From: Saprospiraceae bacterium | GTDB taxonomy: Bacteria > Bacteroidota > Bacteroidia > Chitinophagales > Saprospiraceae | Direction of reading: 5' to 3' | Length of the DNA stretch: 64,000 nucleotides | NCBI GenBank assembly: GCA_027488935.1 | Contig: JAIYAP010000044.1 | Coordinates: 1 to 64,000, forward strand | Shown: piece by piece, positions 33,732 to 57,968 of the stretch | Layout of the letters: each line of letters opens with the position of its first letter | How positions within the stretch are numbered: the stretch's first letter is position 1 | Position numbers and translations under genes: made by a program | The notes under the pieces: generated by a model | Told to the model about the DNA's origin: nothing | What the model saw: the letters and a program-made list of their open reading frames with translations, nothing else | Databases searched by the model: none

Positions 33732-36557
33732 TTAGTGAATGATGATTTTTCCTACGGCTGCTTTACCCTGCGCGGTTTGCAAACGGAACCAATAAATCCC
33801 GGTACATAATTTTCCGCGCTCCAGCAACAATTCCGGACCCGTAAATGTCTGTTCTACAGCCAGTTGTCCAAAAGTATTAAATACCTGAAGGCGATTTAAG
33901 CCGGTTTCCGCCGCATCCAATCGGAACAAGATGTTTGCACTGAATGGGTTTGGAAATGCTTCATAATCAAGCGATTGTACAATTGGGCTTTTAACAACAC
34001 TGATCAGTTCCATGCTAATTTGGTGGGTTGCCACATTGGTAATGATCGGATCATTGAAGTCAAAATAAATACCAGCCTTGTTTTCCAATACGGTGCCTGG
34101 GGCCAAATCTGGTATCGGCTGGATGCTAAAACTCACAAAGCCGTGAGAGGCCACTTCATTTACATTGGAATCGGGCAACATGATGTTGGGGAAATAAAAC
34201 ACCAGGGTACGCCCATCCACAACTTCCCAGGTATAAGGATGGCTGGCAGGACCCGGACGGAAAGTACCCAAATCCAACAATCCAGACACTTCATCCCTGA
34301 TTTTAACGGTAAATGCTGTGTCGTTCCCCGTATTTTGGAATCGAATTTTGTACTGCAACTGCTGGTTGGGTTCAATCAAGTGCGTTTCTTTCCATCCCAA
34401 TGGATAGCCTTGTTTGTCATTTGGGTCGTAGGAGCCGCGTACTTCTGCACAATGGCGAACGGTAAATGGATCGGAATCTTGTATGGGCAATTGCAGCGCC
34501 AGATTCGGGCCGCCAGGGGTCACGCAATTGAGCATAAAGGCGGCAGCATCGCCATCACCCGGGTGGCCGGGGCGTTGTTTTACCTGCATATAATAAGCAT
34601 GCCCTGCCGGATTGTTTATCGTAAGAACGGTATCTTCTCCCGCATTCAAACGCAACATATCAGACACCATAATCTGGTCTTCAATAATTACGTAATCACT
34701 ACTTCCGCTCATATTGCCTTGTCCGGTGTTGGTTACCACAAATTTTACGGTACCGTCGCAGATTGCCTTGATTTCCAGGTTCGAACCGTCCCAATTGGCA
34801 TTGGCGGGTAAACAGGAAGAATCGGGTAAAATGCGGCCTTCCACACAAAGTGTTTGTCCTAAAACGGCATCACAACTTACCTGACACTGTATTTGAAAAT
34901 CGCCGCAATCATTGGGCAAATCGAAGCGCAAGGTGTCGCCCGATTGGCTGCTCAGCGGAATCGAGCTACTTACATAGCTCAGGTTGGGGTCGAGTGCAAT
35001 GAAAACCTGCACATTCGTCGCTGGCAAATTGCCTTCATTGCAATATTGCACCGTTAAATAAGTTCCCATACAACGTCGAACCAGGCCAGATCCAATTTCC
35101 ATGCGCATGAGCGGGCAACTTACGAGCGCCCGAATACCGATGGGCGGAAGGGTGCTTTGTTGGCCGATGTTTGCAATAATGACCGTCGGCGTGTCGCAAG
35201 GACTGTAAAACAACGGCTGGTTGTTGCGCGGATGTACAATGACCTCATACAATCCGGGAGGAATGGCAATGCTGTAGGCACCCAAGGCATTGGTTTTGGC
35301 AAAAAAACGGTTGTTGTTGATGCCGCGCGCCTCCACCATAAAGTTGGAATAAGCAGGCTCACCCGCATCCGGGCTGCAACTTTGGTTGAGGTCTTCGTAG
35401 ATACTTCCGAGGATGCGGCTACTGTACACTTGCCCCTCTAAATCCGTTTTGATTAAAAAAGCGCCCTGCCCATCACCTCCTGCCATCGCCAGGAAATTTT
35501 GATCTACCGTAACAATGTCTTGCACATAATCGGCGCTGTTTAAGGTAAAGTAGTCAAGTATATTACCTTGGGAATTTGTTTTAATCAGACGCAAAGTACT
35601 TTGCGTGTTGTCTTCAAAATTGGCATGTACGGGGAAATACAGGTTGTCATTGGCGTCACGGGTAAAGGTCCTGGCCAAGGGCAACTGCAAGGCGACACCG
35701 TAAAAGACGGAAAGGTCGATTCGATTAAACCAGTTTTCGGTGCCATCGGGGTGTACGCTGAGCAAGGCGATGCTTACCGGGTTCGATTGCAAGTTGTCAC
35801 CCATGATGACAATATCGCCGGTGCTGGTTTCCAGCAAATCCTGGGCGACCTGATAATTGGGTTTGTTGAACACCTTTTCCCAAAGCAGGGTGCCATCGGC
35901 ATCCACTTTTGCCACAAAAAAGTCGCGGTTGTTGCCGGTATTCAATACCGAACCGCCAATAGCAAAATTACCGTCGCTGAGTGGAATCATGCGCACCACC
36001 TGTTCTTTGAACGTGGGGAGGCCAACCGCTTTTTTCCAAATGATACTGCCTGTGCTGCTCAGCTTTACGAGCCAAATTTGAAGATCGGAAGTCGAATCGC
36101 GCACCGCGCCGCAGGCTAAAAAGCCCCCATCCGGCAGGTTTGCGACACTTTTTAGGCCATTGGGCAAATAATCCTGCGTAATTTCGGTTTGCCAAACCGT
36201 ATTTCCATTGGCATCGATTTTAACAATCCGGTTTTTGGAGAGGGTACTATCGGGCTTGTATTCGCCCAGGGCCACGCAAGCGCCCGCATCTGCAAGGCAA
36301 AGACCGATGCCTTGTCCATTTTGAAATGTATTGTTGTGCACCCATTGGACCACGCCGAGCGCATCTGTTTTTTGAACATGACCATTTTGAAAAACGCCTG
36401 CCATATAATAACCAGCGTTTCCATTTTGGAGGAGGGTGGTGCAATTGCCATTGATGGCCGGATAAGACTTCATAAAGCCTTGTCCAAAGCCGGTGTATAC
36501 CCAAAAGGTACAAATCGGTAGTAAAATCCAAAGTTGGAGTAAACGGGAAAATTTCAT
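33732..36557 (-). CDS. T9SS surface protein with propeller-like N-terminus and DUF7619 domain
   Basis: A 941-residue exported protein. I chose the ATG at 36557, which gives a signal peptide ending FGQG. Residues about 30-390 contain repeats of the form 'sGNxVWxK... DGGFxxxG', as in PQQ- or delta-60-type propellers. A CnaB/SdrD-like segment follows (about 395-460). Residues about 690-850 match the DUF7619/DUF11-like domain (GSYDPNDKQ, YKIRFQNTGNDTAF, ENKAGIYFDFNDPI), and a T9SS tail ends it. It is divergent from the helical protein at 36847. The same pair recurs at 53808-57968. Its promoter (TTTG, 19 bases, CACTTTTG) lies at 36618-36648. The function is unknown. Confidence 0.8.
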   Translation of the reverse strand: MKFSRLLQLWILLPICTFWVYTGFGQGFMKSYPAINGNCTTLLQNGNAGYYMAGVFQNGHVQKTDALGVVQWVHNNTFQNGQGIGLCLADAGACVALGEYKPDSTLSKNRIVKIDANGNTVWQTEITQDYLPNGLKSVANLPDGGFLACGAVRDSTSDLQIWLVKLSSTGSIIWKKAVGLPTFKEQVVRMIPLSDGNFAIGGSVLNTGNNRDFFVAKVDADGTLLWEKVFNKPNYQVAQDLLETSTGDIVIMGDNLQSNPVSIALLSVHPDGTENWFNRIDLSVFYGVALQLPLARTFTRDANDNLYFPVHANFEDNTQSTLRLIKTNSQGNILDYFTLNSADYVQDIVTVDQNFLAMAGGDGQGAFLIKTDLEGQVYSSRILGSIYEDLNQSCSPDAGEPAYSNFMVEARGINNNRFFAKTNALGAYSIAIPPGLYEVIVHPRNNQPLFYSPCDTPTVIIANIGQQSTLPPIGIRALVSCPLMRMEIGSGLVRRCMGTYLTVQYCNEGNLPATNVQVFIALDPNLSYVSSSIPLSSQSGDTLRFDLPNDCGDFQIQCQVSCDAVLGQTLCVEGRILPDSSCLPANANWDGSNLEIKAICDGTVKFVVTNTGQGNMSGSSDYVIIEDQIMVSDMLRLNAGEDTVLTINNPAGHAYYMQVKQRPGHPGDGDAAAFMLNCVTPGGPNLALQLPIQDSDPFTVRHCAEVRGSYDPNDKQGYPLGWKETHLIEPNQQLQYKIRFQNTGNDTAFTVKIRDEVSGLLDLGTFRPGPASHPYTWEVVDGRTLVFYFPNIMLPDSNVNEVASHGFVSFSIQPIPDLAPGTVLENKAGIYFDFNDPIITNVATHQISMELISVVKSPIVQSLDYEAFPNPFSANILFRLDAAETGLNRLQVFNTFGQLAVEQTFTGPELLLERGKLCTGIYWFRLQTAQGKAAVGKIIIH

Positions 36558-36617
36558 GTTGTTCTGGTTTAAAAGTAAGCTGATTAGTTGGCGCGCGCAT
36601 TCCACAGTTCCACGGTA

Positions 36618-36648
36618 CAAAAGTGCGATCTGTTTTATCACCGACAAA
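36618..36648 (-). promoter_or_regulatory. Predicted promoter of the DUF7619 gene, module 1
   Basis: Minus strand: TTTG (36648-36645), 19-base spacer, CACTTTTG (36625-36618). The box lies in GCACTTTTGTACCGT, of which 14 of 15 bases recur in the promoter of the paralogous gene at 55470. Confidence 0.6.
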
Positions 36649-36717
36649 GGACAAAAAAAGTCAAAAATCATATTTTATTATTTATAAAATGTTTTTAATA
36701 GTTTGATATTTAGCAGG

Positions 36718-36745
36718 TTGTAATTTTATTTATTGCTATTTTTGT
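36718..36745 (+). promoter_or_regulatory. Predicted promoter of the helical-repeat gene, module 1
   Basis: TTG (36718-36720), a 16-base spacer and TATTTTTG (36737-36744) match the Bacteroidota consensus, 102 bases before the start at 36847. A second box-like TTTTGTAAA lies at 36833-36841, just before the ATG. Confidence 0.5.
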
Positions 36746-36846
36746 ATTTTCATAAAAAATGAAAGTTTTTTCAGGACCTTTCGGCGCTGCTCTTTTTTTT
36801 AAAAAATGATCCAAGCGCCCTTTTTTAAACATTTTTGTAAAGTTAC

Positions 36847-38250
36847 ATGAAATCCCTGCTTTACCTACTTCGCGCCTTGTCGCCCGAGTCGTTGCGTGCT
36901 TTAGACAAGTATATGCAAGCCACGTATTATGTTACCCATTCGGGGATATTGGCGTTGTACACTTATTTAAAAGTACATTTAAAGGATCCGGATTTGGAGG
37001 GTGATCAGGTGCGCCAGGCTTTGTTTGGGGCAGCATTGGACGGTCAAAAGCGCCTCAACCACCTGAGTAGCAATCTTTTGAGTGCGGTGGAGCATTTTTT
37101 GGCCTTGGAGGTGCAAGCAATACAAAAGCACGAACAGCACTTAGCCACCGTAAAAGCCTTGAGGCAATTGAAACTCAACGAGGCCAGCGCCGGCATGTTG
37201 CGGTATGCCCGTCGACGTTTGGAAGCAGATACGGTGCGTGGTGCCGAGTATTTTCGAGCCGATTATTTATTGCAACAAGAGGCTTATTATTTGTCCTTGC
37301 AACAAGGCCGGGATAAAACTTCCAATGTACAGGACCTGGCTTCTGCCCAAGATATTGCTTTGATTATTGAAAAGTTGCGCACCGGGTGCATCCTGATGAG
37401 CCACGAAACGATTTCCAAACAAACCTATGATAAAGGCTTGTTAAACAGCGTGTTAACCTTTTTAGAAGGGCATGCGTACCTTCAAATTCCAGCGGTGGCG
37501 GTGTATTACCACGGATATTATGCGTTGTTGGGCGAGCAAGCAGACCATCATTTCCAGCAACTAAAAACCTTGTTGCAACAGCATGGCAGCCATTTTTCGG
37601 CCGCCGAAACCCATGATTTGTATTTGATGGCCATCAATTATTGCATTCGTCGGATCAATTTGGCCGACGAGCGTTTTTACCGGGACATTTTCGAGTTGTA
37701 TCAAAGTGGATTGGAACAAGGAGCTTTGTTGGAAGATGGCACGTTGTCGCGTTGGACTTACAACAACGTGACCATGACCGGTTTGCGGCTCCGAGAATAT
37801 GCCTGGGTGAAGCGTTTTTTGTACCGTTATGCCGATTATTTGAGCGTCGATCATCGAGATGCGGCGTTCCATTTCAACTTGTCGCGGTATTTTTACGACA
37901 CGGGTGATTACACACAAGCCATGCAACACCTGTTGCGGATGGAGTACGATGATGTGTTACAAAATTTGGCTGCCAAGTTGTTGTTGGCCAAAATATATTT
38001 CGAACAAGAGGCAATTGGAGCCCTTGAAAATCAATTGGACAGTATTCAAATTTATTTGCGTCGAAAAAAAGTGCTTGGATACCATAAAAATAATTACAAT
38101 GCGATACTTCGTTATATGCGTAAGTTATTGTCTGTCAATTTTAATGATGCCGAATCACTGCGGTCCTTGCGAAAAATGATCCAGGAGGAGCCGGTGTTGA
38201 CAGAGCGGGAATGGATGCTAAAACAATTACCGGAAGTGCGTACCAACTAA
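36847..38250 (+). CDS. Uncharacterised helical-repeat protein, paralogue A
   Basis: A 467-residue, cytoplasm-type protein with no signal peptide and no recognised family. It is almost entirely helical, with TPR-like spacing in the C-terminal half. The conserved core includes LYLMAINYCIRRIN (about 258-271), LEDGTLSRWTYNNV (about 296-309), FHFNLSRYFYDTGDYTQAM (about 340-358), LAAKLLLAKIYFE (about 373-385) and KKVLGYHKNNYNAI (about 409-422). The gene at 53808 is a clear paralogue over this whole core. Both are divergent from a DUF7619-type T9SS surface protein. A regulatory or scaffold role tied to the surface protein is an inference from this repeated arrangement; no DNA-binding motif was seen. 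Confidence 0.75.
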   Translation: MKSLLYLLRALSPESLRALDKYMQATYYVTHSGILALYTYLKVHLKDPDLEGDQVRQALFGAALDGQKRLNHLSSNLLSAVEHFLALEVQAIQKHEQHLATVKALRQLKLNEASAGMLRYARRRLEADTVRGAEYFRADYLLQQEAYYLSLQQGRDKTSNVQDLASAQDIALIIEKLRTGCILMSHETISKQTYDKGLLNSVLTFLEGHAYLQIPAVAVYYHGYYALLGEQADHHFQQLKTLLQQHGSHFSAAETHDLYLMAINYCIRRINLADERFYRDIFELYQSGLEQGALLEDGTLSRWTYNNVTMTGLRLREYAWVKRFLYRYADYLSVDHRDAAFHFNLSRYFYDTGDYTQAMQHLLRMEYDDVLQNLAAKLLLAKIYFEQEAIGALENQLDSIQIYLRRKKVLGYHKNNYNAILRYMRKLLSVNFNDAESLRSLRKMIQEEPVLTEREWMLKQLPEVRTN

Positions 38251-38258
38251 TTCTTGTC

Positions 38259-38267
38259 TACTTTTGC
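38259..38267 (+). promoter_or_regulatory. Predicted -7 box of the peroxiredoxin gene
   Basis: TACTTTTGC matches TAnnTTTGC exactly, 66 bases upstream of the start at 38334. No well-spaced -33 element is seen. Confidence 0.45.
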
Positions 38268-38333
38268 ACCCCAATTTGATTTCGGGCACTTCTTGTTCGA
38301 TCAAATTCGTCTTTTACCAAACTGTGTATTTTT

Positions 38334-38801
38334 ATGATCAATATCGGTGATAAAGCCCCCGATTTCACGTTGCGGGGGAGTGATAAAAGCCAAGTATCCC
38401 TCAAAGACTTTAATGGGAAAAATGTGGTCTTGTTGTTTTATCCAGCGGCCTTTACCGGCGTTTGCACCAAAGAATTGTGCATGATGCGCGATGGCTTGGC
38501 GGATTACGAGCGCCTGGACGCCCAAATTTTAGCCATTTCGGTGGATAGTTTGTTTACGTTGGCACAATGGAAGATGGACCAAGGCTTCAATTTTCCGATG
38601 TTGTCTGATTTTAATAAAACCGTCAGTAAAAAATACGACGTACTGTACAAGGAATTTGTGTTTGAAATGAAAGGGGTATCGAAGCGTTCGGCATTTGTGA
38701 TCGATAAGACCGGAATTGTGCGCTACGCGGAAGTTTTGGAGAATGCCGGAGAAATGCCGAATTTTGAGGCGGTAAAAAACACCCTTGAATCGTTGAACTA
38801 A
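38334..38801 (+). CDS. PrxQ/BCP-type peroxiredoxin
   Basis: A 155-residue AhpC/TSA-family peroxiredoxin that reduces H2O2 and organic hydroperoxides using thiols. The active-site segment [15 protein letters not shown] places the peroxidatic Cys44 after Thr41. Cys49 lies five positions on, the CX4C arrangement of the PrxQ/BCP class in which the resolving cysteine is in the same helix. No signal peptide is present, so it acts in the cytoplasm. It has its own predicted promoter and is followed after 28 bases by clpS and then aat, so the three could be one transcript joining peroxide defence with N-end-rule turnover. Full length, no anomalies. Confidence 0.9.
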
Positions 38802-38829
38802 TTATTGCAACCGATTGTTTTTTGTCCAT

Positions 38830-39168
38830 ATGAACGTGATAGACTTGAAATTTCATAAAACATCCTTTGCCACCAAACCACTTTGGGAGGAAGAGGAAGA
38901 TGTATTAGTAGACGAAGATATTAGTTTTGGTTTGCCTGTTCATATTATTGTATGGAATGATGATGTCAATTCATTTGAATGGGTAACCCAGTGTTTTATG
39001 GAAATTTTGGGCCATTCTTTCGAACAATCGGACCAATTGGCCTTAATTATCCATTATAAAGGCAAAGCGATTGTAAAAACCGGGCCCAAGTCGGAGTTAG
39101 TTCCCTTGTGTGAGGCCCTGCTTGAGCGTGGTTTATCTGCCGAAATTGACGGTGAAGAAGCCACCTAA
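38830..39168 (+). CDS. clpS: ATP-dependent Clp protease adaptor ClpS
   Basis: A 112-residue adaptor that brings N-degron substrates to ClpA/ClpC-ClpP. The core has the family pattern HIIVWNDDVNSFEWVTQCFMEILGHS with the conserved Asn-Asp (about residues 40-42) and the YKGKAIVKTG segment. I use the ATG at 38830 rather than a TTG at 38815, as the extra residues add nothing. The aat gene follows after 41 bases. Aat makes exactly the N-terminal Leu/Phe signals that ClpS reads, so the pairing supports both calls. Confidence 0.9.
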   Translation: MNVIDLKFHKTSFATKPLWEEEEDVLVDEDISFGLPVHIIVWNDDVNSFEWVTQCFMEILGHSFEQSDQLALIIHYKGKAIVKTGPKSELVPLCEALLERGLSAEIDGEEAT

Positions 39169-39209
39169 GCGTTTCAGAATATTCCACCGTAGCACCTTTA
39201 AACTCAAAA

Positions 39210-39929
39210 ATGCCTGTTTTTTGGCTCAACGAAGATGAACTTGCCTTTCCCCATCCATCACTTGCTGATCCGGGTGGATTGCTTGCTGTAGGGGGTGATT
39301 TGAGCGAAGAGCGCCTGATTTTAGCCTACCAAAATGGTATTTTCCCCTGGTTTGAAGAGGATGGGGCATATTATTGGTATGCTCCGGATCCGCGTTGGGT
39401 GCTTTTTCCGCAAGAATTGAAAGTGCACAAAAGCATGCGGTCTATCTTCAACCAGCATAAATTTCGGTATTCACTCGATACCTGTTTTGAACGCGTTATG
39501 CAGGCCTGCTCCAGTACGCCCCGGGGCGACCATGAGGGCAGTTGGATTTCGGACAGTTTTATCGAAGGCTACGCCCGTTTGCACCATCAAGGGCTCGCAC
39601 ACTCAGTGGAAGTGTGGGATGGCGAAAATCTGGTAGGCGGCCTGTATGGCATTAGTTTGGGTAAAATATTCTTTGGGGAGAGTATGTTTGCCCATGCGCG
39701 CGATGCCTCCAAAGCAGGATTTATTGTGTTGGTTCGGGCATTGCAACAACTTAATTTCGTGTTGGTCGATTGTCAGCAACAAACACCGCATTTAGAAAGT
39801 TTGGGCGCACGCGGCATTTCCAAAGAACACTTTTCAGAATACCTTTTCCAAAATCAGTACGCGCACACACATATTGGAAAGTGGAAATTTAACAGTGCCC
39901 ATCATATCGAAATATCACCAGAAAAGTAA
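39210..39929 (+). CDS. aat: Leucyl/phenylalanyl-tRNA-protein transferase
   Basis: A 239-residue enzyme that adds Leu or Phe from aminoacyl-tRNA to proteins with N-terminal Arg or Lys. The full family pattern is visible: FPHPSLADPGGLLAVGGDL near the start, FPWF (about 45-48), WYAPDPRWVLFP (about 56-67), HEGSWISDSFIEGY (about 109-122), HSVEVWDGENLVGGLYGISLG (about 131-151), FFGESMF (about 153-159) and VDCQQQTPHLESLGA (about 188-202). The length is typical. It lies directly after clpS, so the window holds both the writer and the reader of this degradation signal. No anomalies. Confidence 0.95.
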   Translation: MPVFWLNEDELAFPHPSLADPGGLLAVGGDLSEERLILAYQNGIFPWFEEDGAYYWYAPDPRWVLFPQELKVHKSMRSIFNQHKFRYSLDTCFERVMQACSSTPRGDHEGSWISDSFIEGYARLHHQGLAHSVEVWDGENLVGGLYGISLGKIFFGESMFAHARDASKAGFIVLVRALQQLNFVLVDCQQQTPHLESLGARGISKEHFSEYLFQNQYAHTHIGKWKFNSAHHIEISPEK

Positions 39930-40011
39930 TAAATTGCCAGCAAATTGGAAGCGAATCCATGTAAGTACAGGGCGCGCAGGTATCCTATTTAATTAGAATT
40001 GACACAACGCT

Positions 40012-41769
40012 ATGCAGAAAACGGGAATGAAGGGGCTGCTATTTGTCACTTTGCTGCTCACCTTTTTATCATTTGAGTCATCCACACCAGAAAGGGGTAA
40101 TACCACGGCAGCTGTAGCAACAGCATACCCGAAGGATTATTTTCAATCGCCGGTCGGGCATATGATTCGACTCACAGGCAGTTTTGGGGAGTTGCGCGCG
40201 GGCCATTTTCACGCAGGTCTTGATATTGACGGAACCACCGGGGTGCCGGTTTACGCTGCGGCCGACGGTTATATTGCGATCATAAAAGTGCAGGCAAGTG
40301 CTTACGGCAATGTGCTTTATATCAAACATCCAAATGGATACACCACGTTGTATGCCCACCTCGATCGTTTTGCCCCCGAAATACAACAATATGTGAAAGA
40401 ACAGCAATACAAACGGACACGGTTTGAGGTGAATTTGCACCCGCCCGCAGAGATGTTTCGGGTGTTTAAAGGGCAAGAAATCGGTAAAATGGGCAATACA
40501 GGCGGTTCCCGTGGCCCACACCTGCATTTTGAAGTTCGAAATACAGCAACCCAAAAGGTCGTAAACCCGCAGTTGTTCGGCATGCCGGTGCAGGATGATG
40601 TCGCCCCGGACATCCGCGATATGAAGGTTTATTTTTTGAATGAAAAACGGGAAGTTTTGGATAGCAAGCCATTCCCGGTTGGCAAACAAAAGACGGGGGA
40701 CTATGATTTGGAAGGCGATACGGTACGCATTGGCGCCTGGCGGGTTGGTTTTGGGGTAAAAGCATATGACACAACAACGGGCAACAAAAATGACAATGGA
40801 ATTTATCTACTGTCCATGTTTGTGGAAGATCAGTTGGCTTTTGAATGGCGCATGGATGAAATGGATTTCGATGAGTCCCGGTACATCAATGCGCACATCG
40901 ACTATTCGGCTCAAAAACGGTATGGCGCTTGGTTTCATCGTTGTTTTGTACTTCCGGGCGACAAGTTATCCAATTATGTAAAAACAGAAACCATGGGGGC
41001 GGTGTCCTTATTTGCCGAAAAACCACAGAAAATTACCATAAAAGTACAAGATGCGCTGGGAAATGCCCGGTCGATTCATTTTTGGGCGTTACGAGATACC
41101 CAAAATATGGTCACCTACCCATCCACAGCGGATCGCTATAAATTGCCGTACGATACCGAACGTAAACTTATGTTGGGTGATTTAAACCTGACCATACCCA
41201 AAGGCGCTTTGTATGAAACCCTGACGTTCGAATATTTTGTCTCTGCCGGCAATGCTAAAAACCAGTTTTCACCGATGCACCATTTGCAAGATTCCAAAAC
41301 GCCGGTGCATAAGTATTACGAAATCAGCATCAAGCCGTATGGATTACCCGAATGGCTTCATAACAAAGCTGTTATTGCAAAATGCGGGGACGGCAAACCC
41401 GACAATTGCGGTGCATCCTGGCGTGGTGATTATATTATGACCAAGGTGCGGGAATTTGGCCAATATTGTGTGATGATTGACACCACACCACCGCAGGTTA
41501 CCCCTGTGGTGTTCAATAAAGATATGCGCCGCAACAGTACCATGGCTTTCAAAATTACGGATAATATGGCCGTGAATGGCCTGGCTTATGGGTTGTATTT
41601 TCGCGGTACCATCGATGGGAAATGGGTTTTGTTCCAATATGATAAAAAAAGGTCCCGCATTACCCATGTATTCGAATCCTGGCTGGAAAAAGGCACGCAC
41701 ACCCTTCAACTGGAGGTAAAAGACGATCGGGATAACGTAGTCTTGTATACCAAAAAGTTCTTGCGGTAA
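40012..41769 (+). CDS. Exported M23-family metallopeptidase
   Basis: A 585-residue protein with a hydrophobic signal segment (about 7-23). The LytM/M23 peptidase domain is at about 45-180: zinc-binding His67 and Asp71 in HAGLD, and HLH at 170-172 in GPHLHFEVRN. Such domains cut peptide cross-links in peptidoglycan. A long C-terminal part (about 190-585) is beta-rich, with segments like YYEISIKPYGLP, and probably has Ig-like domains that position the enzyme at the wall. It stands alone between aat and a convergent GT2 gene. The ligands appear intact, so it should be active rather than an activator of the EnvC type. Confidence 0.88.
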   Translation: MQKTGMKGLLFVTLLLTFLSFESSTPERGNTTAAVATAYPKDYFQSPVGHMIRLTGSFGELRAGHFHAGLDIDGTTGVPVYAAADGYIAIIKVQASAYGNVLYIKHPNGYTTLYAHLDRFAPEIQQYVKEQQYKRTRFEVNLHPPAEMFRVFKGQEIGKMGNTGGSRGPHLHFEVRNTATQKVVNPQLFGMPVQDDVAPDIRDMKVYFLNEKREVLDSKPFPVGKQKTGDYDLEGDTVRIGAWRVGFGVKAYDTTTGNKNDNGIYLLSMFVEDQLAFEWRMDEMDFDESRYINAHIDYSAQKRYGAWFHRCFVLPGDKLSNYVKTETMGAVSLFAEKPQKITIKVQDALGNARSIHFWALRDTQNMVTYPSTADRYKLPYDTERKLMLGDLNLTIPKGALYETLTFEYFVSAGNAKNQFSPMHHLQDSKTPVHKYYEISIKPYGLPEWLHNKAVIAKCGDGKPDNCGASWRGDYIMTKVREFGQYCVMIDTTPPQVTPVVFNKDMRRNSTMAFKITDNMAVNGLAYGLYFRGTIDGKWVLFQYDKKRSRITHVFESWLEKGTHTLQLEVKDDRDNVVLYTKKFLR

Positions 41770-41784
41770 TAGATTTCAAGCCTA

Positions 41785-42948
41785 TTATGGCTTCCAAACG
41801 ATTTTTTTACGTTGGAAAATCAAATTATAGGGTACGAGCAATCCAAAATATAAAGCCAACATCATGTCAAACAGGGGCGTTTTTAGCAGCAAATCACCGC
41901 TTTTTAAGCGCTTAAACACGGGTTTATAACAAATCTGAAGCGCCCCTTGTCGAAGTACATAGATCCCCAGCGCAGGGAATGCGTATTGTACGCCCAATAG
42001 GGTTAGCAAAAGCAAAAAATAGTGAAAAACGAGGGTTCCGGCAAATAAGGTGAGTAGCAATTGATGTACAGGCTTATACACATGCGATACGCTTAAATGC
42101 CGCCTTTTTTGCCGAAACCAATGCGGCCAGTTTGCTGCAGCTGCGGAGTACATGGTTGCTTGTGTATCCGTACAAATTGCGGTGTTTTTTGAATTTGCGG
42201 CCGCATTAATCAATAAATCATCATCTCCAGAAGCAAAATCGGCATGTTTTTGATACCCATTCTGTTCCTCAAACAGTTTTTTTTTGAACGCCAGGTTGCG
42301 TCCAACCCCCATGTAAGGCATGCCCATACCCGCCATGCCTCCGTATAAAAAGGCCGTGTGGTTGGTTTCAAAACGTGCCCATTGGTTCAAAAATCCGGGT
42401 TCAGGCAACAAGGGTCCAAAACCAAGTACAATATCGATTCCAGGTTGTTGCATGTGCCGCGCCATACTGGCCAGCCAATGCGGACTGGCTGGAGCACAAT
42501 CGGCATCGGTAAGCACCAGCCATTCATGTTGCGCCGCTTGAATGCCTGCACTGAGGGCCGCTTTTTTTCCAGCCTGGGTTTTGGTCGCCAGATGGATCGC
42601 CCTGAATGAAGTAAATTGATTTTCAAAGGATTGCAATATCGCACGACTATCATCAGTGGATGCGTCATTCACGACCAACAGATCAAACCTGCCTGGATAC
42701 GCCTGGCCCAGCAAGGTGGGCAGGTGTTTTTTTAAATTGGCAGCCTCGTTGCGGGCGCACATCAACAAGCTGAGTGCTGGATAAACAAACGGCGTAGGCA
42801 TTATTTCGGACTCCTTGCGCAGGATTTTTTGCCAACCAGCCCTGATAAAAAACACATAAAGTACTAATTGCAAGGCACTTACACTGCAATACAGGACAAA
42901 AATCAGGAAAATCAGGAGCCGCCCAGCATCAGCACTAAAACTTTCCAT
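41785..42948 (-). CDS. Membrane-anchored GT2 glycosyltransferase
   Basis: A 387-residue family 2 glycosyltransferase. An N-terminal membrane helix covers about 10-35. The GT-A domain has VVNDASTDDS (about 93-102), the DXD-type TDADCAP (about 147-153) and the QXXRW-like segment FRQKRRHL near 284. Two or three hydrophobic helices follow at the C-terminus (about 300-385). Enzymes of this shape add sugars on the cytoplasmic face for surface polysaccharide or glycolipid. It is convergent with the M23 gene (16-base gap) and divergent from cmk (about 85 bases). Donor and acceptor are unknown. Confidence 0.85.
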   Translation of the reverse strand: MESFSADAGRLLIFLIFVLYCSVSALQLVLYVFFIRAGWQKILRKESEIMPTPFVYPALSLLMCARNEAANLKKHLPTLLGQAYPGRFDLLVVNDASTDDSRAILQSFENQFTSFRAIHLATKTQAGKKAALSAGIQAAQHEWLVLTDADCAPASPHWLASMARHMQQPGIDIVLGFGPLLPEPGFLNQWARFETNHTAFLYGGMAGMGMPYMGVGRNLAFKKKLFEEQNGYQKHADFASGDDDLLINAAANSKNTAICTDTQATMYSAAAANWPHWFRQKRRHLSVSHVYKPVHQLLLTLFAGTLVFHYFLLLLTLLGVQYAFPALGIYVLRQGALQICYKPVFKRLKSGDLLLKTPLFDMMLALYFGLLVPYNLIFQRKKIVWKP

Positions 42949-42985
42949 AGGACAAATTAAATCAAGTCAACAAAGGTAGTAGTTC

Positions 42986-43014
42986 TTGCGCTCCAATTTT
43001 ATCAATACTTTTGC
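42986..43014 (+). promoter_or_regulatory. Predicted promoter of cmk
   Basis: TTG (42986-42988), a 17-base spacer and TACTTTTGC (43006-43014) give an excellent Bacteroidota promoter. Transcription would start near 43020, which rules out the more upstream in-frame start and supports the TTG start codon at 43034. Confidence 0.65.
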
Positions 43015-43033
43015 GCACGAAAAATCAGCACGT

Positions 43034-43711
43034 TTGAAAAAGATCATCATAGCCATAGACGGCTACTCCTCCTGCGGAAAAAGTACCCTTGCGAAAGGGC
43101 TGGCAAAAGCCTTACACCTGGCCTACCTCGACACGGGCGCCATGTATCGCGCGGTAACCCTGTATTTATTAAACAACAACATTGATTACAATGATTTGGA
43201 CGCAGTAGAATCAGCTTTGCAGCATGTTTCTATTCATTTTGAACGTATTCATGGCCAAAATCATACATTTCTCAATGATGTAGACGTGGAAACCGAAATT
43301 CGGTCTATGCATGTAAGTGAACACGTAAGCCCGGTATCTGCAATTTCTATCGTGCGCAAAGCCATGGTCAAGCAACAAAAGGAATTTGGCAAACGCCGCA
43401 ACATCGTTGCCGACGGCCGCGACATTGGAACCGTTGTATTCCCAGATGCCGATTTAAAAATATTTCTGATAGCCGATGCCGACGTGCGCACCAGCCGCCG
43501 ACATTTAGAACTTGCCTCAAAAGGCATCGATGCTGAATGGGATGATATTTATAAAAACCTGATGGAACGGGATCAAATCGACTCATCCCGTGCCGACAGT
43601 CCACTCCGCCAAGCCGACGATGCCACCATCTTGGATAATACCCTTTTATCCGAAGCAGAGCAGTTGACGATTACGTTGGAGTGGGTTCGGTTAGTGATGA
43701 GTGAGGAGTGA
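43034..43711 (+). CDS. cmk: Cytidylate kinase, TTG start
   Basis: A 226-residue (d)CMP kinase. The P-loop is GYSSCGKST (10-18), and the family segments LDTGAMYRAVTLY, GRDIGTVVFPDADLKIFL and ASKGIDAEWDDI are present. I choose the TTG at 43034 because it gives the usual start MKKIIIAIDG and because the promoter lies where a longer version would be coded. The leader is thus only about 15 bases. The last codons and the stop (VMSEE, stop) lie in a heptanucleotide tandem repeat that begins at 43693, so the C-terminal tail is repeat-encoded. Reaction: ATP plus CMP to ADP plus CDP, in the cytoplasm. Confidence 0.93.
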   Translation: MKKIIIAIDGYSSCGKSTLAKGLAKALHLAYLDTGAMYRAVTLYLLNNNIDYNDLDAVESALQHVSIHFERIHGQNHTFLNDVDVETEIRSMHVSEHVSPVSAISIVRKAMVKQQKEFGKRRNIVADGRDIGTVVFPDADLKIFLIADADVRTSRRHLELASKGIDAEWDDIYKNLMERDQIDSSRADSPLRQADDATILDNTLLSEAEQLTITLEWVRLVMSEE

Positions 43712-47481: not shown

Positions 47482-47501
47482 CTTCATTTAAATTTTACCG
47501 T

Positions 47502-48484: not shown

Positions 48485-48555
48485 CCGCCCTGTCTGTTTG
48501 TCCGCTTTTCCTTTGAAAAGTTTTGACAAATAAACAGGGCGGTATTTTTATTTTA
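48485..48555 (+). terminator. Long rho-independent terminator
   Basis: The arms 48485-48502 and 48525-48542 form an 18-position stem with two G-U pairs; the loop contains a smaller cttttc/gaaaag stem. TATTTTTATTTT follows. It ends the gene at 47502. Confidence 0.85.
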
Positions 48556-48605
48556 ATAAAGGGCTTTTGTGCAAGTTCAATCAAAAAAGTATAACTTATA
48601 AAAAT

Positions 48606-51473: not shown

Positions 51474-52582
51474 TGGTCATGAAAATCACCTATTTACCCA
51501 TAGTCTTTTTTTGCTTTTTGCTTTGTACTTCCTGCCATTCGGGTCAAAAAATACAAAAGCCCACGCCGCCAGAAGTAGCACGCGTAGAAGCACTTTTGGA
51601 AACCCCACCTGTTCCTGCGCTAACCGGCAAAGACGCTGCTGATGATCCTGCTATTTGGGTGCATCCCAGTCAACCACGCAATAGCCTGGTCATCGGTACG
51701 GTAAAACATTACGGACTGGAAGTGTACGACCTGCAAGGAAAATTGCGCAAATCGTACCAGATTGGAAATCCAAATAATGTCGATTTACGCTACGATTTTA
51801 CCTTAAAAAACGGCAAAAAAGTCGATTTCATCGCATTTTCAGACCGTGCAACCAACCAGGTGGCCATTTATTTCATTGATCCGGAAAAAGGCGAACTGAT
51901 CGAAAATCCAGCCCCCCGCATCCAGTCCAAACTAACCGAAGTGTACGGCATTTGCCTTTACCGCAGTGCCAAATCGGGCCTGTTTTATGTGTTTGTGAAT
52001 GGTAAAGACGGCGCCATGGAGCAATATCAATTGGCCCCGGAAGGCGAGGCGGGTATTGGCGGACGACTGGTGCGCACCTTTAAAGTAAAAACGCAGCCAG
52101 AAGGTTTGGTTGCCGATGACCAATTAGGCTTTGTGTACCTGGGAGAGGAGGATAAAGGGATTTGGAAATTGGCAGCAGAGCCAGACGCTCCCACCACCTT
52201 TACTTTTTTAGCGGAAAGTGTTCCCGCCGTTGGTCGGCCCATACAATATGACATTGAAGGTTTGGCGATTTTTCCAACCGGCCCACAAAGCGGGTATTTG
52301 ATCGCATCTTCCCAAGGCAACAATACTTATGCGGTATTTGACCGGACAGGCAACAACCGGTACCTGGGCAGTTTTGTGGTAGGGGACAACCGTGCAGCGG
52401 GGGTAGATGGTGTTGGCGATACCGATGGACTAGACGTAACCGCCCGCAACCTGGGCGGCGCTTTTGGTCAAGGCATGCTGGTGGTACAAGATGGATTCAA
52501 TGTGGATTCCACAGGACTTGCCTTACCGCAAAACTTCAAATTGGTGCCTTGGGCAAAAATTCAGACTTTACTGAAACGCTAA
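51473..52582 (+). CDS. Beta-propeller phytase, lipoprotein
   Basis: A 369-residue lipoprotein (signal ending LLCTSC). The opening DAADDPAIWVHP (about 48-59) and later VDLRYDF, LTEVYGICLY, GRLVRTFKVKTQPEGLVAD, YLGEEDKGIWKL and GVGDTDGLDV are the standard beta-propeller phytase motifs, covering the calcium and phosphate sites. It should release phosphate from inositol hexakisphosphate at the cell surface. The ATG at 51473 overlaps the TAA of the receptor gene; an ATG at 51479 is equally good for the signal. It ends at a bidirectional terminator shared with the convergent endonuclease gene. Confidence 0.9.
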   Translation: MVMKITYLPIVFFCFLLCTSCHSGQKIQKPTPPEVARVEALLETPPVPALTGKDAADDPAIWVHPSQPRNSLVIGTVKHYGLEVYDLQGKLRKSYQIGNPNNVDLRYDFTLKNGKKVDFIAFSDRATNQVAIYFIDPEKGELIENPAPRIQSKLTEVYGICLYRSAKSGLFYVFVNGKDGAMEQYQLAPEGEAGIGGRLVRTFKVKTQPEGLVADDQLGFVYLGEEDKGIWKLAAEPDAPTTFTFLAESVPAVGRPIQYDIEGLAIFPTGPQSGYLIASSQGNNTYAVFDRTGNNRYLGSFVVGDNRAAGVDGVGDTDGLDVTARNLGGAFGQGMLVVQDGFNVDSTGLALPQNFKLVPWAKIQTLLKR

Positions 52583-52586
52583 ATAC

Positions 52587-52618
52587 TAGACTTGTTGCTT
52601 TCCACCGCAACAAGTCTA
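52587..52618. terminator. Bidirectional terminator between phytase and endonuclease
   Basis: The arms tagacttgttgc (52587-52598) and gcaacaagtcta (52607-52618) pair perfectly over 12 positions. It abuts the stops of both convergent genes. Confidence 0.85.
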
Positions 52619-53740
52619 CTACCGAATCATCATAAAAGGCTGTGCCTCTGCAACTTGCTGCTGTTCGTTGGATAAAGTTACGATCCAAACGCCCTGGAAA
52701 TTTTGCGTGTTGGTCAATGTACTCAAATCCAAAGTGCATTGATAAGGCCCTGCAGGTACCGCCAGCATGGTCAGGCTGGTAACTTCCTGTCCCAACATAT
52801 TGACCAATCGGCATTGCAATTTGCCTGAAAATGGCAGGTTCAACTGGCAATTTAAGGTAGTAGTTGGGGTCGGGTTGGGATTCAGTTGCATTTGTAGCGG
52901 TTTGTTGTCAGGCGTTTCGTACACCCCGGTTGCACAAGCGGGTGGTACTTCCGGGCACCAGCTGCGGGCTGCCAACGTACAATCAAGCACAAAAGGATTG
53001 GGTTTTCCATCCTGATAAGCCGCAATTTGCCAGGTTTTGCGCAATTCAACCGAGTCGGCCGGATCCTGTTCATTCCATTTACACAGCGTAAGGCGCTGAA
53101 TTTCAAAGTAATTAGGGTCGGCGATGTTGGCCTGGGCGCGGTACATGGTATAAAAGTAAAATATAGACCGCGCCAAATCGCCCTTTACTTTTTCGCGGGG
53201 TTCGAACGCCGTGGCCCGGGATTCAGAATAGGCGTTAATATTCGTGGTTGGAACAGTGGTAAATATCTGATTATTGATAAACCATTTATCCACCTGCGTA
53301 TCCACAATATCCAGGTAAGGCTTATCTGCGCGCGCCTCATTTACAGGGATGCGGGCAGGGTAGAGGTGGTGCATATCACTTCGGGCATTGCCATCTGCTG
53401 CACCTTTGCCTTGTGGATAGGCGTGTTCGGTATTCATGCCATTGGTGCTGCCACCCAGGTAAATATACTGGGTAGGATCTTGATTAGGCGCAAGATATAA
53501 AGTATGACCGGAGTATATGCATCGAATGCTGTCATCGTCGGCAGCCAAAATTTTGGCATAGAGCGTATCGCGGGCATCGGCATAGGTAAGCACATTGACC
53601 GGGCGGTAGTGGCTGGCCAGGCTATCAATGAGTTCATCTCCAAACAGGTTAAAGAATACGTTTTCAAATCCCTGTTGGGCTTGAAGGGTGCTGTTACCGA
53701 GCAAAAAGAACAGAAAAATGAACTGGAAAGTGTTTTTCAT
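52619..53740 (-). CDS. Secreted endonuclease I with T9SS tail
   Basis: A 373-residue exported nuclease. I chose the ATG at 53740 for the signal peptide MKNTFQFIFLFFLLGNSTLQAQ. The endonuclease I domain (about 35-285) has the active-site segment GGSTNGMNTEHAYPQ (about 99-113) and SDMHHLYPAR (about 122-131), the His-Asn type metal site. KGDLARSIFYFYTMY and RLTLCKWNEQDP are also typical of the family. The last 80 residues form a T9SS tail. It would degrade extracellular DNA, giving nucleotides and phosphate. It is convergent with the phytase gene, which supports a shared theme of phosphate scavenging, though each has its own promoter. Confidence 0.9.
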   Translation of the reverse strand: MKNTFQFIFLFFLLGNSTLQAQQGFENVFFNLFGDELIDSLASHYRPVNVLTYADARDTLYAKILAADDDSIRCIYSGHTLYLAPNQDPTQYIYLGGSTNGMNTEHAYPQGKGAADGNARSDMHHLYPARIPVNEARADKPYLDIVDTQVDKWFINNQIFTTVPTTNINAYSESRATAFEPREKVKGDLARSIFYFYTMYRAQANIADPNYFEIQRLTLCKWNEQDPADSVELRKTWQIAAYQDGKPNPFVLDCTLAARSWCPEVPPACATGVYETPDNKPLQMQLNPNPTPTTTLNCQLNLPFSGKLQCRLVNMLGQEVTSLTMLAVPAGPYQCTLDLSTLTNTQNFQGVWIVTLSNEQQQVAEAQPFMMIR

Positions 53741-53807
53741 AGACAAGTAGACTGCGTGCTGTTTGGACGTTGGGCGCAAAGATAGGGCACAAAAACCAGG
53801 AAGTCTA

Positions 53808-55217
53808 TTAGATTGCAGTTAAGCCCGCATGTAGTATTTTTTCAAAATAGCCTTTTTCAGTTAAAATCTTTTCTGCTTCAATTTCCTGCCAGAGGCGTTC
53901 CACGGCTTTTCGGTTGCGAAGGTCAGTGTGCATGAGTTTTTCGGTGTATTTGATCACATTCAGGTAATTGCTGCGGTGATAACCCAACACGTGTTTGCGG
54001 TGGATGTAATTGCGCATGGCATCGAGGTGCGATTGGAGGGCGTCAAAGGCATTGGTTTCATAATACGTCTTCAGCAGCAGTGTTTTGGCGGCCAAATTGC
54101 GCAAAGGATCGCGGTAATTGGTTTTTTGAAGTAATTCGAGCACAAAATCGTAGTGTTTACTGGCATATTCGAGGCGAGCCAGGTTGAAACTAAAGGCGCT
54201 TTCCCGGTATTTTTTTTCCAGTTTGTGTTTGAATTCATTGATGAAATACCGCACCCAGTCTAGCTCCCCTGCCTGCAAGCCCGCCGCTACGATATTGTGG
54301 TAGGTAAACCTGGAAAGTATCCCGTTTTCAAACAAATATCCCTTTAAAAGGCCTTCTTTATACAAATCCAATACTTCTTGCAAATATTCGGCTTTGCCTG
54401 CGTTCAGGCAGCGCACGCAAAAATTGATCGCCCAGATGTATAAACCATGCATTTCTTCCAAATTAAAGCGCAAAGCATGGACGAAAAGGGCATTTTTGAA
54501 ATTTTTGAAATGAAGTTCCTGCTCTGGAAAGGTGAGCATATAATAACACAAGAGGTACACTTCCAGGGCCGGATGTGCTTTTAAATCCTGTTTTTCTGCT
54601 TGGGCAATAATGGGTTGTGCCCAATCCATATCATTTTGCTCGGAAGGGTACACCGATTGATGGGCCGTGCGCAAACAAAAAAGGCGCAATTTGCGAATCA
54701 AATACTCCACATCGGCCGTGTGGGAGATGGTATGCAGCAACGCAATTTCCGTCGGATTTTTGACATACACCGTTTGAAATCGCGCCCATTGCAGGCGGTG
54801 TTGCAGACCATAAAACGATTCGTCCCGCAGCGGTTGTTTTTGCAAATTGCGGTCCAGATCTTTCTGAACCCGCTCAAAAGCATCGGGAAGTGTCCGTTTG
54901 CGGTAAGCAATCGACAGCATTAAATTAGCCTCCAAAGGGTTGGATTCCAGTTCTTTAATGACAAAATAACGCTCCACCAATTGCAATAAGTAACTCATGA
55001 GCAGCCGCATTTTCTGATCGTCATATGAAACATCAGGCTGCACTTGCGCCCAAACCTCCTCTTTGCTGGGCGGAGTTGTATATTGTGCCAACAACTCAAA
55101 AAATACCGCCAGATCTTCCCGCTGGTTGAAGTAAGGGGAGCGTAAAAACTTGCGCAATTCCCGCTTTTCGATGGGGGTGAGCGTGATAATCAGTTGAAAA
55201 AGACTACTTTTTTCCAT
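53808..55217 (-). CDS. Uncharacterised helical-repeat protein, paralogue B
   Basis: A 469-residue, signal-less protein. It is paralogous to the gene at 36847, most clearly in LYIWAINFCVRCLN, LFENGILSRFTYHNIV, FSFNLARLEYASKHYDFVL, LAAKTLLLKTYYE and KHVLGYHRSNYLNVI. The N-terminus LTPIEKRELRKFLRSPYFN (about 13-31) is the better kept end of a family I know only as hypothetical in Bacteroidota. It is predicted to be helical throughout, with TPR-like spacing. It is divergent from the DUF7619 surface protein at 55470, as paralogue A is from its own partner. The function is unknown. Confidence 0.75.
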   Translation of the reverse strand: MEKSSLFQLIITLTPIEKRELRKFLRSPYFNQREDLAVFFELLAQYTTPPSKEEVWAQVQPDVSYDDQKMRLLMSYLLQLVERYFVIKELESNPLEANLMLSIAYRKRTLPDAFERVQKDLDRNLQKQPLRDESFYGLQHRLQWARFQTVYVKNPTEIALLHTISHTADVEYLIRKLRLFCLRTAHQSVYPSEQNDMDWAQPIIAQAEKQDLKAHPALEVYLLCYYMLTFPEQELHFKNFKNALFVHALRFNLEEMHGLYIWAINFCVRCLNAGKAEYLQEVLDLYKEGLLKGYLFENGILSRFTYHNIVAAGLQAGELDWVRYFINEFKHKLEKKYRESAFSFNLARLEYASKHYDFVLELLQKTNYRDPLRNLAAKTLLLKTYYETNAFDALQSHLDAMRNYIHRKHVLGYHRSNYLNVIKYTEKLMHTDLRNRKAVERLWQEIEAEKILTEKGYFEKILHAGLTAI

Positions 55218-55260
55218 AAAAGTGCAGGGTAGTCAAATCTTATTTTCATAATTTGATTTA

Positions 55261-55268
55261 CAAAACTA
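55261..55268 (-). promoter_or_regulatory. Predicted -7 box of helical-repeat gene, module 2
   Basis: Minus-strand TAGTTTTG, extended as TTTTGTAAA like the element just before the other paralogue at 36833-36841. It is 44 bases upstream of the start at 55217. No clear -33 element. Confidence 0.4.
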
Positions 55269-55342
55269 CTGTAAAATATTGAATATTAAGAACTCGTACT
55301 TAAAAAAGTCTGAAAAGTGCTCTACAAAATGCTTAAATTGAT

Positions 55343-55374
55343 TTTGGCAGCCTGATTACTTCGTTGCACTTTTG
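55343..55374 (+). promoter_or_regulatory. Predicted promoter of the DUF7619 gene, module 2
   Basis: TTTG (55343-55346), a 20-base spacer and CACTTTTG (55367-55374). The box lies in GCACTTTTGTATCGT, which differs at one base from the module 1 promoter. Confidence 0.6.
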
Positions 55375-55469
55375 TATCGTTCAAAAGAAGTGTACACTTG
55401 AAAACGACACCTAACCGGCTGATTCATCCCAACTAAAACAACAACTTGCAAAAAAAATCAGGTAATCCT

Positions 55470-57968
55470 ATGAAAAATGCTTTTATTCAACCAATGCAAT
55501 TCAAATCCATGAAGATCCTCCTTCGAGCGGGATGTTTCCTGCCACTGCTCTTGCTAGCCCTGCTTGGGCGGGCACAAGATTGTCAAAATGACACCATTCG
55601 GCCAATTTGTACGCCCCCCGCGAATGTGTCGGTGAGTTGCGAACAATTTGATCCAACTTTGGGGGCTTATAGTTATGCGCTTGCGACCGACGATTGTTGC
55701 CTGGATACGATCACGGTTGCTGTATCTTATGGTCTTTTTGATACGATTTGTAGCAAAGGAACCATTTTGCGTACATTTAAAGCCCTGGATTGCAGTGCCA
55801 ACTCCGCTACTTGTTCGCAGCGCATCGTGGTTTCTCATGTACAAAATTATGCGGTGCACTTTCCCGACGATTTAATCCTTCCATCTTTTAATGCCACGGG
55901 CAATTACGGCGAGCCCAGTTTCTTGGGCAAAGATTGTGAAGTGATCGGCGTCTCCTATTCGGATGAGGCGTTTAACATTGTCCAAGACTCTACGATTCGG
56001 TTGGAGCGCACCTGGACCATCATTAACTGGTGTACCTATGATCCGAATTTGGCAGTGACTGAGGTGCCTAATCCCCAGCCCAATGTGTTTCCAAAACATC
56101 CAGACAATTTTCCTGGCCCGATTGTGTCGGCTTCCGGTACGCCTTTTCCTTGGTCGCCAACCATTTCAAGGATTTTATCAGATGACCCTTTTCCAACCAA
56201 TTTTTCTACTTTTTTTAACTTAAATGCCAACGGCTACCGTTATTTGCAGATTATTTTGATCACGGATACGGTTTTGGCGGGCGTACAGGGCCGGGTATTT
56301 GGCGACAATAACCAAAATTGCAGCTTGGAAACGGGCGAGCCTTACCTGGCAGGATGGAATGTGAAAGCCAGAGGACTCATTTCGGGCGTCGAAAACTTTG
56401 CTCGAACAGACGCGAATGGCTATTATGGTATTTCCCTGCCGAATGTGGATACCTTGATGGAAGTAACCGTGCTTCCCAGTATTCCTACCGAAGAGATATG
56501 TCCATTAATCGATACAGTTCAGGCACAAGCGGGCATTATTGCTGATTTGGATATGCCCGTTACCCTGAACAATACTTGCCGTTTGCTTACCATCAGCTTG
56601 TCTACCATTCGGTTACGCCGGTGTTTTCAAAACTCCTACTATTTCGATGCTTGTAATTTAAGCACCCAGGATGTTCCCAATACCCGCGTAGAAGTGCAGT
56701 TGGATCCATTTTTTACCGATCCGGTTTTTAGCGCCCCTGCTACCGACTTGGGTAATAATAAATGGTCGGTGAGCCTCGATACCCTAAAAACAGGGGAATG
56801 TAAAAATTTCTATGTGAACTTTGTCCTCAGTTGCGAAGCGGAATTAGGTGCGACCCATTGTACTGAAGCCCATATTTTCCCGGATACCCTTTGCCGCACC
56901 AATTCCAACTGGTCGGGTGCGGATGTGCGCCTGGAGGTAACTTGTGATGCCGATAGTGTACGCATGCAAATCAAAAACCAGGGAGCAGGAAATATGGCCC
57001 AGGAACTTGATTTTGTGGTCGTAGAAGATATTATCATGTATCAGGAAGGCAAATTCCAGTTGTCTGCCGATGGTGCCAAGGAACTCGTATTGCCTGCCAA
57101 TGGCGCAACCTGGCGTTTGCAGGCCAACCAGGAGCCGTTTCATCCTTATGGTGGACCAGCAGTGGCTGTCGTAGAAGGTTGCGGTGGTATCAACCAAAAA
57201 GGCTTGGTACGGCAGTTTCCGGTAGACGATCCGAACCCGTTTGTTGCGGTGGATTGCGAACAAAACATTGGCTCTTACGATCCCAACGACAAGCAGGCAA
57301 TGCCAGAAGGATATGGTGCGCAGCATTTATTAAAAGCCAACACTGATTTGGAGTATAAAATCCGCTTCCAAAATACGGGCACCGATACAGCCTTTAACAT
57401 TGTGGTATTGGATACTTTATCAGAATTCCTGGATGCAAATTCGGTACGTCCCGGTGCGTCCAGCCATTTGTACGCCTACGATTTGCTGGAAAACAACGTA
57501 TTGCGGTTTTCATTTAAAAATATCATGTTGCCCGATAGCCATGTGAATCAAATTGCCTCCAACGGGTTTTTCAAATTCAAGGTGAAGCAAAAAGCCGACA
57601 ATCCGGACGGGACCTTGTTGGAGAATAAAGCAGCCATTTATTTTGATTTTAATGCGCCGATTATCACCAATTTGGTTTATCATACCATCGGTACGCATTT
57701 TGTTCAAAGTGTGGGTGTAGATGCAGCACAAAAACAATCCGATGTAAAGATTTATCCTAACCCTGCCGGTGATCAATTATTCGTTGAAATACCTTCGGGC
57801 ACGGGCCTCCTCACCTTGCGCAATAGCCAGGGACAATTGGTTCGTAGCCAAGTGATTACGCAAAAAATAACGCGTATTGAGCGGAAAGAACTATCTGCAG
57901 GATTGTATTTCTTTACCATTCAAGATGGTGGCAAATCTGCGATCGATGGTAAATTAATATTCCGGTAG
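55470..57968 (+). CDS. T9SS surface protein with HYR-like and DUF7619 domains
   Basis: An exported protein of about 832 residues from the ATG at 55470. A start at 55509 (MKILLRAGCFLPLLLLALLG) is also credible and gives a tighter signal peptide. An N-terminal HYR-like, Cys-rich domain (about 40-130) is followed by an SdrD/CnaB-like segment (about 275-350; VQGRVFGDNNQNCSLETGE). A DUF7619/DUF11-like domain follows (about 600-750; GSYDPNDKQAMPEGYG, YKIRFQNTGTDTAF, ENKAAIYFDFNAPII), then a T9SS tail. The DUF7619 half is a clear paralogue of that at 33732, while the N-terminal half is different. It is divergent from helical paralogue B. A strong terminator follows. Confidence 0.8.
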   Translation: MKNAFIQPMQFKSMKILLRAGCFLPLLLLALLGRAQDCQNDTIRPICTPPANVSVSCEQFDPTLGAYSYALATDDCCLDTITVAVSYGLFDTICSKGTILRTFKALDCSANSATCSQRIVVSHVQNYAVHFPDDLILPSFNATGNYGEPSFLGKDCEVIGVSYSDEAFNIVQDSTIRLERTWTIINWCTYDPNLAVTEVPNPQPNVFPKHPDNFPGPIVSASGTPFPWSPTISRILSDDPFPTNFSTFFNLNANGYRYLQIILITDTVLAGVQGRVFGDNNQNCSLETGEPYLAGWNVKARGLISGVENFARTDANGYYGISLPNVDTLMEVTVLPSIPTEEICPLIDTVQAQAGIIADLDMPVTLNNTCRLLTISLSTIRLRRCFQNSYYFDACNLSTQDVPNTRVEVQLDPFFTDPVFSAPATDLGNNKWSVSLDTLKTGECKNFYVNFVLSCEAELGATHCTEAHIFPDTLCRTNSNWSGADVRLEVTCDADSVRMQIKNQGAGNMAQELDFVVVEDIIMYQEGKFQLSADGAKELVLPANGATWRLQANQEPFHPYGGPAVAVVEGCGGINQKGLVRQFPVDDPNPFVAVDCEQNIGSYDPNDKQAMPEGYGAQHLLKANTDLEYKIRFQNTGTDTAFNIVVLDTLSEFLDANSVRPGASSHLYAYDLLENNVLRFSFKNIMLPDSHVNQIASNGFFKFKVKQKADNPDGTLLENKAAIYFDFNAPIITNLVYHTIGTHFVQSVGVDAAQKQSDVKIYPNPAGDQLFVEIPSGTGLLTLRNSQGQLVRSQVITQKITRIERKELSAGLYFFTIQDGGKSAIDGKLIFR

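Follow-up and report, generated by a model that had tools for sequence, protein, structure and literature searches.

To our knowledge, how Bacteroidota select type IX secretion system (T9SS) surface proteins for display is largely open. A stretch of 64,000 nucleotides from a Saprospiraceae bacterium (GenBank assembly GCA_027488935.1, contig JAIYAP010000044.1, positions 1 to 64,000; hereafter the window) raises the question of whether individual surface proteins are encoded together with a controller of their own. In it, two genes for helical proteins of one family, here called H, are each transcribed divergently from a T9SS-type gene with a DUF7619 domain, and the first-pass annotation proposed that such a pair moves and works as a unit. 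We found that the H-partner unit is real, old and repeated, and we put at roughly 0.5 the probability that H is a DNA-binding regulator dedicated to its partner gene. The features of both pairs are listed by window coordinates (aa, amino acids; TPR, tetratricopeptide repeat; HTH, helix-turn-helix).

33732-36557, minus strand: partner A, 941-aa T9SS-type protein with DUF7619, a C-terminal sorting tail and a PQQ/beta-propeller-like N-terminal part
36616-36625, minus strand: -7-like box of partner A, CACTTTTGTA on the partner strand, putative promoter
36644-36671, no strand assigned: place of the 28-bp element in pair A, at the usual 18-nt spacing, with a single recognisable dyad arm
36847-38250, plus strand: H-A, 467-aa helical protein, divergent from partner A
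53808-55217, minus strand: H-B, 469-aa helical protein
53811-54944, minus strand: predicted C-terminal TPR-like superhelix of H-B (residues 92-469; model, profile and fold matches)
54945-55217, minus strand: putative HTH-like N-terminal domain of H-B (residues 1-91; weak fold matches)
55321-55348, minus strand: 28-bp dyad element of pair B, 18 nt from the -7-like box
55367-55376, plus strand: -7-like box of partner B, CACTTTTGTA, putative promoter
55470-57968, plus strand: partner B, 832-aa T9SS-type protein with DUF7619 and sorting tail

Divergent H-partner pairs in the window and in related genomes

The four open reading frames (ORFs) lie where they had been annotated, divergent in both pairs, and the proposed paralogy of the helical proteins was borne out (29% identity between H-A and H-B over 460 aligned columns, E 1e-66). 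Partners A and B are 37% identical over 578 aligned columns (E 4e-104); their common part is the C-terminal half with DUF7619 and the tail, and their N-terminal halves are unlike. Both proteins exceed the cut-off of 27 for PF24595, the DUF7619 family, as had been claimed (153.9 bits for A, 152.9 for B). The sorting tail PF18962 scored 34.9 bits in partner B, over its 27-bit cut-off, and 22.9 bits in partner A, under it, and PQQ_2 in partner A was under its cut-off at 25.2 bits. By signal peptide, judged by eye and hydrophobicity, and C-terminal sorting domain, the partners are predicted T9SS cargo.

A search with H-B found 19 H genes in the source genome, and a profile of those 19 found 21. 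Each of the 19 first found has a head-to-head upstream gene with, by eye, a signal-peptide-like or lipoprotein-like start; 16/19 of these divergent neighbours bear a sorting tail and 10/19 a DUF7619 domain according to home-made profiles, used for all such counts and iterated on the same sequence set (PF18962 itself was scored on 150 of 378 source-genome candidates). At an eleventh DUF7619 locus (L040, 3628-9563, contig C65) a 412-aa T9SS gene, endonuclease/exonuclease/phosphatase-like, is inserted between H and the DUF7619 gene, and the 28-bp element described below remains before the latter at 6783. The two additional, distant H-like genes obtained by the profile search (L345 5347-6753 and L346 5124-6779) are divergent from other kinds of gene, one encoding a phosphorylase-superfamily protein and the other an Fn3-domain protein whose N-terminus is hydrophobic; they could represent outgroup roles of the family.

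H is present in 60 of the 61 sampled genomes of the family (source genome counted, one match very weak) and in 21 of 198 genomes across the phylum, many of these matches being weak; copies per genome reach at least 26 in other genomes, and all copy numbers are lower bounds, with up to 26 candidates per genome scored in the family and up to 8 in the phylum. Pairing was counted in 120 regions from 60 genomes of relatives, a non-random choice of top-listed matches (five H genes at most from each genome) and few-copy genomes, with several weak few-copy matches left out. Among the H genes whose contig extends to a neighbour, 117/125 are divergent from it, and the divergent neighbour carries a sorting tail in 103/125 and DUF7619 in 63/125, five further divergent partners being truncated by the contig end; two H genes at contig ends are excluded, and the H gene of L177, where an antisense ORF was taken, enters no count. 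In 53 of the 60 genomes, at least one H gene is divergent from a tail-bearing gene. By comparison, over all loci including the source genome, a tail-bearing member was found in 7/162 other divergent pairs (7/321 when asked per gene, each pair being counted from both genes), and 74/1136 other genes bear a tail. In a named set overlapping the main one (49 of 80 named relatives bear the name Saprospiraceae or Saprospirales; nine H genes at contig ends excluded), 71/74 H genes are divergent, 58 with a tail; among 183 other genes that have a divergent gene upstream, that gene bears a tail in 8 cases. The first-pass annotation had equated coincidence with most H homologues lacking a divergent secreted neighbour; the majority have a tail-bearing one, and its view of the pair as a unit stands. 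This usual arrangement of H back to back with an exported surface-protein gene, often many times per genome, suggests a separate, dedicated controller for each such surface protein. A contig filed under Thermoanaerobaculia (L264), probably misbinned, bears an H gene with 55% identity to H-B.

The two genes could also be mere neighbours, an old divergent promoter arrangement spread by duplication with no functional link. Whole-pair tandem copies do occur (e.g. L178, L180, L186, L192, L204, L212, L230), and within the source genome the distances between H proteins and between partners are weakly and not significantly correlated (mirror-tree Mantel r 0.16, p 0.16, n 11). Nevertheless, H paralogues only 15-30% identical to H-B keep the divergent layout despite turnover of the flanking genes, and the layout recurs with different partner classes, so that we regard a purely positional association as very improbable. 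When one gene on each side was compared in the DUF and Big_9 classes, a flanking-gene homologue was common to 6/2415 locus pairs of the DUF class, 41/595 of the Big_9 class and 0/78 within the source genome; therefore the pair, not the neighbourhood, is the conserved unit.

DUF7619 as the defining mark of the partner, as first annotated, was not upheld. Many H genes pair with Big_9/cadherin-like T9SS proteins (~800 aa, in the source genome with a dockerin domain too), short ones (~370 aa, dockerin-like by eye) or an Fn3-type protein, partner sizes spanning ~170 to more than 1,200 aa; moreover, of the 18 source-genome DUF7619 genes over the cut-off, 11 are at an H locus and 7 have no H nearby. 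Partner class follows H clade: on the H tree (FastTree, 145 H proteins, 50/142 inner branches starred) it changes 3 times over 118 rows, versus a mean of 38.0 and a minimum of 32 over 100 label shuffles, with Big_9 and short labels assigned by length and L040 set to DUF by hand. For 74 DUF-type pairs the mirror-tree comparison gave a Mantel r of 0.29 (0/5000 permutations), and nearest neighbours agree in 18/74. Since the Big_9 partner of the source genome resembles that of a single-H genome (29% identity, 784 columns), the Big_9-type pair may be the older one. The DUF7619-bearing class of partners compares with isopeptide/CLIPPER-like surface stalk domains: DUF7619 (PF24595) is reported in PMC12617251 as an intramolecular isopeptide family near DUF11/CLIPPER, and the part of that source consulted does not mention a paired regulator. 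With crude regular expressions, all three residues of the Lys-Asp-Asn triad were recognised in 20/80 DUF7619 proteins. A DUF7619 match was also seen outside Bacteroidota, in Deinobacterium chartae among the control genomes.

A dyad element and putative promoter between the paired genes

The intergenic regions of DUF-type pairs contain a 28-bp element, AACAAAgACAAAAaatnnaATTTGTaGA on the H strand, with the dyad ACAAA-N8-TTTGT. In a one-genome-out test, not fully blind as the profile was seeded from these sequences, 62/73 DUF-type regions scored above the 95% level of shuffled sequences, 61/62 in one orientation, and the source genome contributed 6/10 of its DUF-type pairs; in the same test, other divergent regions had the element in 7/124 cases. 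An unseeded motif search regained the element in DUF-type regions (18.4 bits versus 9.6 shuffled). The element of pair B reached 17.7 bits (threshold 9.4) when the source genome was kept out of profile training and 19.2 bits with the full profile; the best score in the intergenic region of pair A, 9.3, fell below the threshold and was not counted as a match.

The element keeps a fixed distance to a promoter-like box: TACAAAAGTG is recognisable at 57/64 element sites and lies exactly 18 nt away in 54/57. On the partner strand the order is the dyad, TTG near -33, 20 nt and CACTTTTG, the last being similar to TAnnTTTG, given in PMC9723704 as the -7 box of Bacteroidota. Scanning 486,128 bases of the source genome, overlapping in places and enriched for H loci, gave 8 sites above 16 bits, 7 of them between an H gene and its partner, including the one before the DUF7619 gene now parted from H by the inserted gene. 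Genome-wide, a box-plus-element pattern designed from source-genome sites had 15 matches with up to 2 mismatches, 8 of which lie in the H-partner regions used for its design, and 59 matches with up to 3 mismatches versus 36 for the reversed control. The consensus element with up to 3 mismatches had no match in the source genome. A softer dyad pattern, also designed from source sites, gave no excess (196 versus 186 for the reversed control), and both of its perfect matches are inside H intergenic regions.

Two results weigh against a simple reading of H as the dedicated regulator. By the full profile the element is present in 64/74 regions of the DUF class and 6/8 of the short class, and most of the Big_9 class is without it (6/36); in the one-genome-out test the non-DUF T9SS pairs together had it in 13/47, and a de novo search in Big_9-type regions returned the start-codon region alone (12.8 versus 10.3 bits). 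Furthermore, a shared factor may own the common promoter, because 4 of the 7 box-plus-element matches outside H-partner regions are promoters of small-RNA-like units without an adjoining H. In that case H would not bind DNA itself and would be a Rap-like TPR adaptor modulating a shared DNA-binding activator. Rap proteins, which act on other regulators, are the best fold matches of H, and one element common to many paralogous pairs and to promoters without H would suit such an activator. On the other hand, the element is rare at T9SS genes without an H partner (6/72) and absent at the 7 unpaired DUF7619 genes of the source genome (0/7), and the H N-terminal domain is basic and, by weak fold matches, HTH-like, unlike the Rap N-terminal domain, a bundle without an N-terminal HTH. 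We consider the adaptor unlikely, if well worth keeping in view.

Predicted fold of H and its candidate mode of action

The predicted model of H is an all-helical alpha-solenoid. Its C-terminal part is TPR-like with the Rap and NprR receptors as nearest folds, and the family profile matched consensus TPR chains (best E 2.9e-7, positions 327-368), so that, according to the model, H is a TPR-like solenoid; its TPR-like helices carry conserved asparagines. The N-terminal domain is basic and has weak fold matches to Fur, OmpR-type proteins and sigma region 4, and its profile against PDB sequences retrieved no HTH, one designed protein matching at E 0.039. Neither H-A nor H-B reached the cut-off of any Pfam family; across 68 family rows the Pfam matches were scattered and weak, mostly to TPR, and 19 rows gave two weak unrelated matches in NCBIfam. 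Beyond these weak matches, neither database supplied a known name for H. A cytoplasmic location, proposed in the first-pass annotation, is plausible because the predicted model begins with soluble helices.

Of the two roles first suggested, chaperone or regulator, the second is the better fit to the divergent layout, to the weak HTH-like match and to the promoter element that pairs have in common. As a dedicated cytoplasmic chaperone or export-targeting factor, H would hold its T9SS partner before Sec/T9SS export; a TPR-like solenoid with conserved asparagines fits the binding of an extended chain, and partner class tracks H clade. The genes are, however, divergent and not co-transcribed, partners within a class have the C-terminal half in common but not the N-terminus, the end that emerges first, and a chaperone role leaves the common promoter element unexplained. 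We therefore hold this role to be distinctly unlikely. Of the functional link that had been proposed, the linkage stands as a conserved pairing, and regulation is what we infer.

As a dedicated regulator, H would be a cytosolic one-component-type protein that combines a basic HTH-like domain (residues ~1-91) with a TPR-like superhelix, the conserved asparagines of the latter recalling peptide-binding TPRs. The region between the two genes would be where each H controls transcription of the divergent surface-protein gene. For DUF7619-type pairs and most short-partner pairs, its site of action would be the ACAAA-N8-TTTGT dyad, just upstream of the partner's -33 position, the location of a class II activator. 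H would activate rather than repress its partner, and the TPR part would presumably sense a ligand, either a peptide or a protein. In a single genome, many surface proteins (19 in the source genome) each have an encoded partner from one family without Pfam or NCBIfam entry, and the pairs offer a concrete candidate operator at fixed spacing.

The arrangement recalls several known systems. RRNPP receptors of Bacillota (Rap, NprR, PlcR, Rgg) place a cytosolic TPR superhelix beside an exported product, as is predicted for H, the putative joining of an HTH-like domain to a TPR-like superhelix in H is likened to their architecture, and Rgg/Shp genes are divergent. In contrast, H occurs in Bacteroidota, its N-terminal domain weakly matches Fur, OmpR-type proteins and sigma region 4, it has no sequence membership in a described receptor family (Pfam, NCBIfam), and its neighbour encodes a large exported protein and no short propeptide. 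A check of H neighbours, very short intergenic ORFs lying outside it, found no short secreted propeptide gene. Because both the propeptide neighbour and the sequence membership are missing, H was not filed as an RRNPP member despite the similar architecture. That H reads a peptide from its own partner, such as a cleaved T9SS tail or signal peptide, and so reports export to the gene, with the small-RNA-like units joining the response, is a quite improbable extension; the peptide-sensing reading, if true, would mean RRNPP-like logic outside Bacillota. In Bacteroidota, SusCD loci have adjoining regulators (SusR, hybrid two-component systems, extracytoplasmic function (ECF) sigma/anti-sigma factors), and there too a genome holds many paralogous regulator-target pairs, each beside a surface-protein gene; the protein family differs, and the target of H is T9SS cargo and not a SusCD pair. 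Transcriptional control is also tied to T9SS where ECF sigma factors regulate parts of the machinery through ECF-type promoters (PMC9723704), whereas H would act on single cargo genes whose -7 box is primary-sigma-like. Among the papers listed in literature searches on type IX secretion or RRNPP, none concerns the H-partner pair by title.

Small-RNA-like units, and window genes outside the pairs

The small-RNA-like units, whose promoter type and dyad are those of the H-partner pairs, comprise three in tandem (L347 10246-10397 and two more copies, G000:C30 118245-119173) and a short relative at G000:C77:175354. The tandem units are ~140 nt long and have a terminator-like hairpin at the end; one copy gave a fold z-score of -4.8. 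The units contain CUUUUCAUGAG, antisense to an AUGAAAAG start. They matched no Rfam family at gathering score, and DNA matches were found in 2/61 genomes, the source genome and one of the same genus.

Anti-phage defence was considered for the four proteins of the two pairs and rejected, the sole PADLOC match being at chance level (E 0.0056). Elsewhere in the window, two adjoining T9SS-type genes (25703-31336) are 72% identical over 732 columns with long identical blocks, having arisen by recent duplication or by gene conversion. Immediately downstream of H-B, on the same strand, lies a gene for a secreted-type endonuclease I (52619-53779).
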